Shown: piece by piece, positions 803-1,819 of the stretch
Numbering within the stretch: position 1 is the stretch's first letter
How the letters are laid out: each line of letters begins with the position of its first letter
Assembly (NCBI RefSeq): GCF_900095885.1
Contig: NZ_LT615367.1
Span: forward strand, 2,232,001 to 2,296,000
Reading direction: 5' to 3'
Origin: Dickeya aquatica
GTDB taxonomy: Bacteria; Pseudomonadota; Gammaproteobacteria; Enterobacterales; Enterobacteriaceae
DNA length: 64,000 nucleotides
Notes under the pieces: generated by a model
Database searches by the model: none
What the model was told of the DNA's origin: nothing
Seen by the model: the letters and a program-made list of their open reading frames with translations, nothing else
Made by a program: the position numbers and the translations under genes

Positions 803-1819
803 ATGATTGATCCGCACATTCCGCTGACGGATATCCACCGCCATCTTGATGGCAATATCCGCCCTCAGACCATTCTTGAATTGGGTCGCCAATTCAATAT
901 CGCCCTGCCAGGACAGGATTTGGCCTCGTTGCTACCCCATGTCCAAATCATGGACAACGAACCGGATTTACTCAGTTTCTTACAAAAACTGGACTGGGGA
1001 GTTGCCGTACTAGGGTCTCTGGATGCCTGTCGCCGGGTCGCCTATGAGAATGTGGAGGACGCCATTCGTGCAGGGCTGGACTATACCGAACTGCGCTTTT
1101 CACCTTACTACATGGCGCAGGGTCATCGGTTACCGATGGCAGGTGTGGTAGAAGCCGTTATCGACGGTATCACCAGCGCCTGCCGCGACCACTCGCACCG
1201 GGTCATGGTACGACTGATAGGGATAATGAGCCGTACATTTGGCACTGAAGCCTGTCAGGAAGAGCTTGACGCATTATTACACAAAAAAGTGCGATTACCG
1301 CTATCGACCTTGCGGGTGACGAGCTCGGCTTTCCCGGCGGAACTGTTTACCGGCCACTTCAGCCGTGCGCGTGATGCAGGCTGGCGCATTACCGCCCATG
1401 CCGGCGAAGCCGCCGGGCCGGAAAGTATCTGGCACGCGATTCAGCAATTGGGTGCAGAGCGTATTGGGCACGGCGTTGCCGCCATTGTCGATCCTTCACT
1501 GATGGAATACATGGCCGAACATCAGATTGGCATTGAATCGTGTCTGACATCAAACCTGCAAACCAGTACGGTAAAATCGCTCGATGAACACCCACTGGTA
1601 CACTTTTTACATCATGGTATTCCGGCAACCATTAACACTGATGATCCTGCCGTTCAGGGCATCGACATTCGCCATGAGTATGAGGTCGCCGCACCGCTGG
1701 CCGGTCTGACACCGCAAGAGATTCGTCAGGCCCAGGAAAACGGTCTGCGCATGGCTTTCATTTCCGAACAGGAAAAACAGCAGTTGCGCCAGCAGGTACA
1801 ACAACGCGACGCCAAATAG
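803..1819 (+). CDS. add: Adenosine deaminase, with an internal out-of-frame segment
   Basis: Purine salvage enzyme that hydrolyses adenosine and deoxyadenosine to inosine and deoxyinosine in the cytoplasm; 338 residues against 333 in E. coli. The ATG at 803 gives the usual family opening. Metal ligands His12 and His14 (HRHLDG), the HAGE motif at 199-202 with catalytic Glu202, and Asp280-Asp281 (NTDDP) are all present. Residues 163-179 do not fit the family. The sequence [16 protein letters not shown], which does fit, is encoded in the same DNA two bases out of frame (1291-1338). One base missing in the A-run at 1283-1288 and one extra G near 1336-1340 would explain it. Either the protein has lost its conserved DLAGDE loop or the sequence carries two indel errors. 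Ribosome binding site weak. Confidence 0.9.

Follow-up and report, generated by a model that had tools for sequence, protein, structure and literature searches.

Three genes of Dickeya aquatica 174/2, encoding a LysR-type regulator, ManA and adenosine deaminase (add), are each shifted out of frame and back again in the deposited genome, and these shifts are likely to mark a poorly assembled patch that is invisible to checks for open reading frames. Most probably, add is an ordinary gene in the strain itself, and it is the deposited sequence that is wrong at this place. The three genes span genome positions 2226135-2233819, or about 7.7 kb. The window (the whole stretch of 64,000 nucleotides that was analysed) corresponds to positions 2232001-2296000 of the genome (G000), a single contig of 4,501,560 bp, and holds the last part of the patch.

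A compensated frameshift in add

The add gene and the features within it are as follows, in window coordinates:

803-1819, + strand: add, adenosine deaminase; 338 aa with no internal stop (from the list of open reading frames)
1276-1279, + strand: first frame shift, one base short compared with relatives (from comparison with the database protein P0001; the DNA alignment with D. lacustris, G001, gives 1279)
1280-1339, + strand: out-of-frame stretch, codons 160-179, with the DLAGDE segment in the adjacent frame (from protein and DNA comparison)
1283-1288, + strand: six-A run, not the site of the first shift
1339-1340, + strand: second frame shift, one base extra compared with relatives, with the normal frame thereafter (the DNA alignment with G001 gives 1340)

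By family models, the product is recognised over its full length: it matches NF006846 with 565.9 bits (curated cut-off 459) at residues 1-334, and PF00962 with 355.2 bits (cut-off 27) at residues 7-334. A search of G000 for a second add copy found none, the window gene being the sole match at E <= 0.001. Columns H12, H14, H199, E202, H223, D280 and D281 are invariant between the window Add and seven relatives, and we take these to represent HxH, HAGE, HG and DD, the motifs of metal binding and catalysis. The deposited protein thus resembles enterobacterial Add in its full-length match above the curated cut-off and in its retention of HxH, HAGE and DD, but differs from it in having out-of-frame residues in place of the DLAGDE loop, so that the loop with its substrate-contacting glycine is not in frame. 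The initial annotation had assigned Gly184 of mouse adenosine deaminase to this loop, and this is borne out: counting on the alignment puts the glycine of DLAG at chain position 184 of the mammalian 9vlv_A, and Gly184 is ranked among the residues of greatest effect in the accessible part of a simulation study (PMC6239307). Structure models gave a mean pLDDT of 48.3 for the window Add (8 sequences) and 72.8 for P0001 (11 sequences), a gap that would suit a damaged protein, although the underlying alignments are shallow and different, which makes the comparison unfair.

The best database match to the window Add is P0001, which has three member sequences on two contigs (the longest of 4,306,477 bases), carries the normal DLAGDE segment and, judged by its sequence, appears to derive from the same species. 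The two proteins differ at 16 positions, all of them within residues 160-179, and are identical at 318 of 318 positions elsewhere; because every difference falls within this one interval, the out-of-frame reading is not a matter of chance. When G000 was searched with P0001, a separate second match was obtained at window positions 1270-1341 (P0001 residues 157-180), in agreement with the earlier proposal that the adjacent frame encodes the family segment. Residues 160-162 are TQK in P0001 and HKK in the window Add, which places the first shift upstream of the six-A run. Residues 163-179 had been described as unlike the family; the stretch is indeed out of frame, but it begins at residue 160. 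Similarly, the base gained near 1336-1340 is borne out by the second shift, whereas the loss of an A from the six-A run is ruled out, both by the TQK/HKK difference and by the DNA alignment with the nearest species. Neither of the two shift sites in add sits in a long homopolymer.

A normal Add could in principle still be made from the shifted gene if the ribosome or polymerase slipped at the A-run and slipped back near position 1339. The run does lie only 4 bases downstream of where the frame is first lost, and the adjacent frame still holds an intact family segment. However, two opposite slips 50-60 bases apart would be needed, slippage at the A-run would yield HKK and not the TQK of P0001, and in relatives no slip is needed to encode the segment. 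The manA and LysR genes described below would need slips too, in manA across 17 missing bases, and such recoding is therefore very hard to credit.

The DLAGDE segment was found in all 42 correctly read rows of the alignment of add relatives (a count in which the row pairs L006/L032 and L007/L031, each from contigs of equal length, probably represent one genome counted twice) and, with its strand corrected, in L013. It was also found in 119 of the best 120 of 5,843 database proteins, and the other one, P0014, reads DLAGNE and is in frame. Therefore, the shift is confined to the 174/2 sequence. It had been suggested that close relatives sharing the out-of-frame peptide would indicate an ancient variant; none of the aligned relatives shares it, and neither does any of the 120 listed database proteins. 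This restriction to a single sequence also argues against the possibility that 174/2 carries real, recent compensated frameshifts in add, manA and the LysR gene, which is considered unlikely, even though the source is a one-contig genome and none of the shifts occurs at a homopolymer run.

The same scar in manA and a LysR-type gene

Two neighbouring genes lie just outside the window:

Genome 2226135-2227043 (L059:14135-15043), - strand: LysR-type regulator, about 5.9-5.0 kb before window position 1
Genome 2229689-2230849, stop codon included (L059:17689-18849): manA, about 2.3-1.2 kb before window position 1

The LysR gene is one base short at three places and three bases short at a fourth, such that about 50 residues are out of frame before the frame is restored. 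Among the 44 listed relatives, the in-frame motif here is GFTSSAPFV in 41 and GFTSSAPFI in 3; an intact LysR copy of the same species was not found as a separate database entry. In manA, which is 1 and 17 bases short at its two shift sites, the frame is lost from residue 44 to about residue 135. The PF20511 match accordingly covers residues 1-44 of the deposited product versus residues 1-150 in D. lacustris, and the greater part of the catalytic domain of phosphomannose isomerase is missing from the product. In contrast, the near-identical manA on a contig of 5,866 bases (P0167) is in frame throughout, and outside the shifted stretch its product is equal to that of G000 at 292 of 294 positions, with residues 171 and 366 as the only differences. 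Each of the two shifted products also has a database entry of its own (P0121 for LysR and P0166 for manA), on one contig of 4,501,560 bases.

Since both the LysR gene and manA are compensated outside the window, the issue is a patch of 7.7 kb and not one gene. An error in the deposited sequence is favoured because these two neighbours bear the same scar as add, while near-identical copies of add and manA do not. Against those copies, the two genes together carry four frame-changing indels versus two amino-acid changes in 612 residues; an excess of indels over amino-acid changes would be typical of sequence error and speaks against real alleles. For real alleles, it can be said that the 17-base deletion in manA is plausible as a true mutation, and a shortfall of this size is no ordinary base-calling error. 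Additionally, the shifts in all three genes lie outside long homopolymers, which counts against error. However, the restored frames would gain the cell nothing, because what is lost includes the adenosine deaminase loop and the larger part of ManA's catalytic domain. Of the two origins put forward in the initial annotation, a homopolymer error or a real double mutation, error is thus preferred, although not as a slip in the six-A run.

In another database manA (P0176, on a contig of 1,827 bases), the residues surrounding QVHP and NHKPE seem to be read in the wrong frame, with a similar compensation. Therefore, such islands occur in other assemblies too.

Frame-shift scans of D. aquatica and other Dickeya genomes

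A region of 204 kb around the window was scanned for frame shifts with five references (G001, D. lacustris; G004, D. poaceiphila; G005; G006; and G008, D. chrysanthemi), each of which was also scanned as a subject, and about 110-140 genes were matched per reference. A 60% identity filter lost manA against the more distant species, and the gene was regained at 40%. With the support of at least three references, G000 has five events: three compensated ones and two uncompensated splits. The compensated events lie at 2226788 (LysR gene), 2229812 (manA) and 2233271 (add), and each was flagged by all five references. All three compensated genes thus fall in one patch of 7.7 kb, which is a further point against real alleles. 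With the same support, no compensated event was found in G001, G004, G005, G006 or G008 over the 204 kb; splits numbered three in G001 and one each in G004 and G006, and were absent from G005 and G008.

One of the two uncompensated splits in G000 is near 2296867, 0.87 kb beyond the window end, and lies within the first 31-49 residues of a protein of 338-356 aa. The second is near 2317566, and both are backed by several references.

When about 600 kb were compared with three references and at least two of them had to agree, G000 has the three compensated events and four splits, and three of these four splits are confined to the first 20-50 residues. Over a similar span (about 600 kb), D. lacustris has nine supported events, located at 222626-521776, all of which break genes internally. 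Judged from these positions, the supported events of G000 mostly leave long frames open, and those of G001 do not. Gene-breaking splits are more numerous in G001, with nine, than in either G004 or G006, with one apiece, and errors or pseudogenes may be present in the G001 assembly as well.

With G001 as the lone reference over about 600 kb, 9 compensated and 18 split events were obtained for G000, and 8 and 21, respectively, for G001. Of the 31 places flagged in G000, seven are backed by at least two of the three references; the other 24 were left unassigned, and they may include some genuine compensated events in other parts of the genome. DNA-level indels between G000 and G001 were also counted as a possible marker of the patch (432 over 93,932 aligned positions). 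This count was set aside as too noisy: 4-kb bins of the patch contain 10, 34 and 38 indels, but another bin elsewhere contains 42, and the patch is not unique by this measure.

Age of the shifts and openness of the alternative frames

Where the frame is shifted, most of the differences from D. lacustris occupy third positions of codons when the DNA is read in the other frame, the ancestral one: 8 of 10 in add (reference residues 161-178), 25 of 26 in the LysR gene, and 42 of 65 in manA, where the figure is rougher because the alignment has small gaps. This bias indicates that the shifts are very young and that, up to very recent times, the DNA of the shifted stretches was evolving like any normal coding sequence.

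All three genes have kept a full-length frame, which counts against error and in favour of real alleles, as it would be rare under random errors. In G000 genes, an alternative frame is open over 20, 52 and 93 codons at frequencies of about 0.42, 0.10 and 0.015 for one frame, and 0.31, 0.06 and 0.013 for the other; in G005, the corresponding values are 0.43, 0.11 and 0.03, and 0.49, 0.19 and 0.05. Among the five relatives, the +1 frame of the add stretch is stop-free in all five, the +2 frame of the LysR stretch in one, and the +1 frame of the manA stretch in none. The open stretch in add is therefore no surprise. Given the low frequencies for the longer stretches, however, random errors alone would rarely keep all three frames, and a filter is needed. 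Exactly this pattern would result from a screen that detects broken frames and lets compensated ones through.

Error in the deposited sequence as the best explanation

If the deposited sequence is in error, then the patch may have been poorly covered or poorly finished. Errors that broke a frame outright would have been spotted and resolved, or else would be absent from the patch, whereas those that cancel each other inside one gene would pass every open-frame check and remain. In the literature searched outside the strain's genome paper, no account of the sequencing of 174/2 was found.

Comparable cases are on record. In the accessible part of the report on the resequencing of Bacillus subtilis 168 (PMC2885750), compensating frameshifts in the first genome are described as fixed, having been undetectable by an earlier error screen. 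As in 174/2, gene boundaries stayed the same and the frame unbroken while a conserved internal motif was lost; in contrast to 174/2, which is known from the deposited sequence alone, the errors there were proven by resequencing. Similarly, according to the accessible part of a second report (PMC9306890), the vfmO frameshift of D. chrysanthemi CFBP 1270 in GenBank was gone after resequencing. Like that of add, it was a frameshift in a deposited Dickeya sequence, and in the case of vfmO it was not confirmed. It concerns another species and another gene, however, and that part of the report describes no compensated pair.

Implications for D. aquatica and its deposited proteins

If the shifts are nevertheless real, then the Add protein, with 20 replaced residues and its substrate-contacting loop lost, is probably inactive, and as read from the sequence alone, add and manA of 174/2 would probably provide neither adenosine deaminase nor mannose-6-phosphate isomerase activity. 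The patch would in that case have been hit by a burst of recent, cancelling indels, at least two per gene, that left every frame open. There is only a small chance of this, but a real burst would offer a natural example in which selection, or some mechanism, holds frames open despite lost function.

If, as preferred here, the deposited sequence is in error, then three proteins are wrongly given in a patch of the genome of the D. aquatica type strain. Automatic annotation is silent on this patch, since no frame is interrupted and the product of add still scores above the cut-off of the curated adenosine deaminase model. Out-of-frame islands of this kind also reach the protein databases, as they have done with the LysR and ManA entries.
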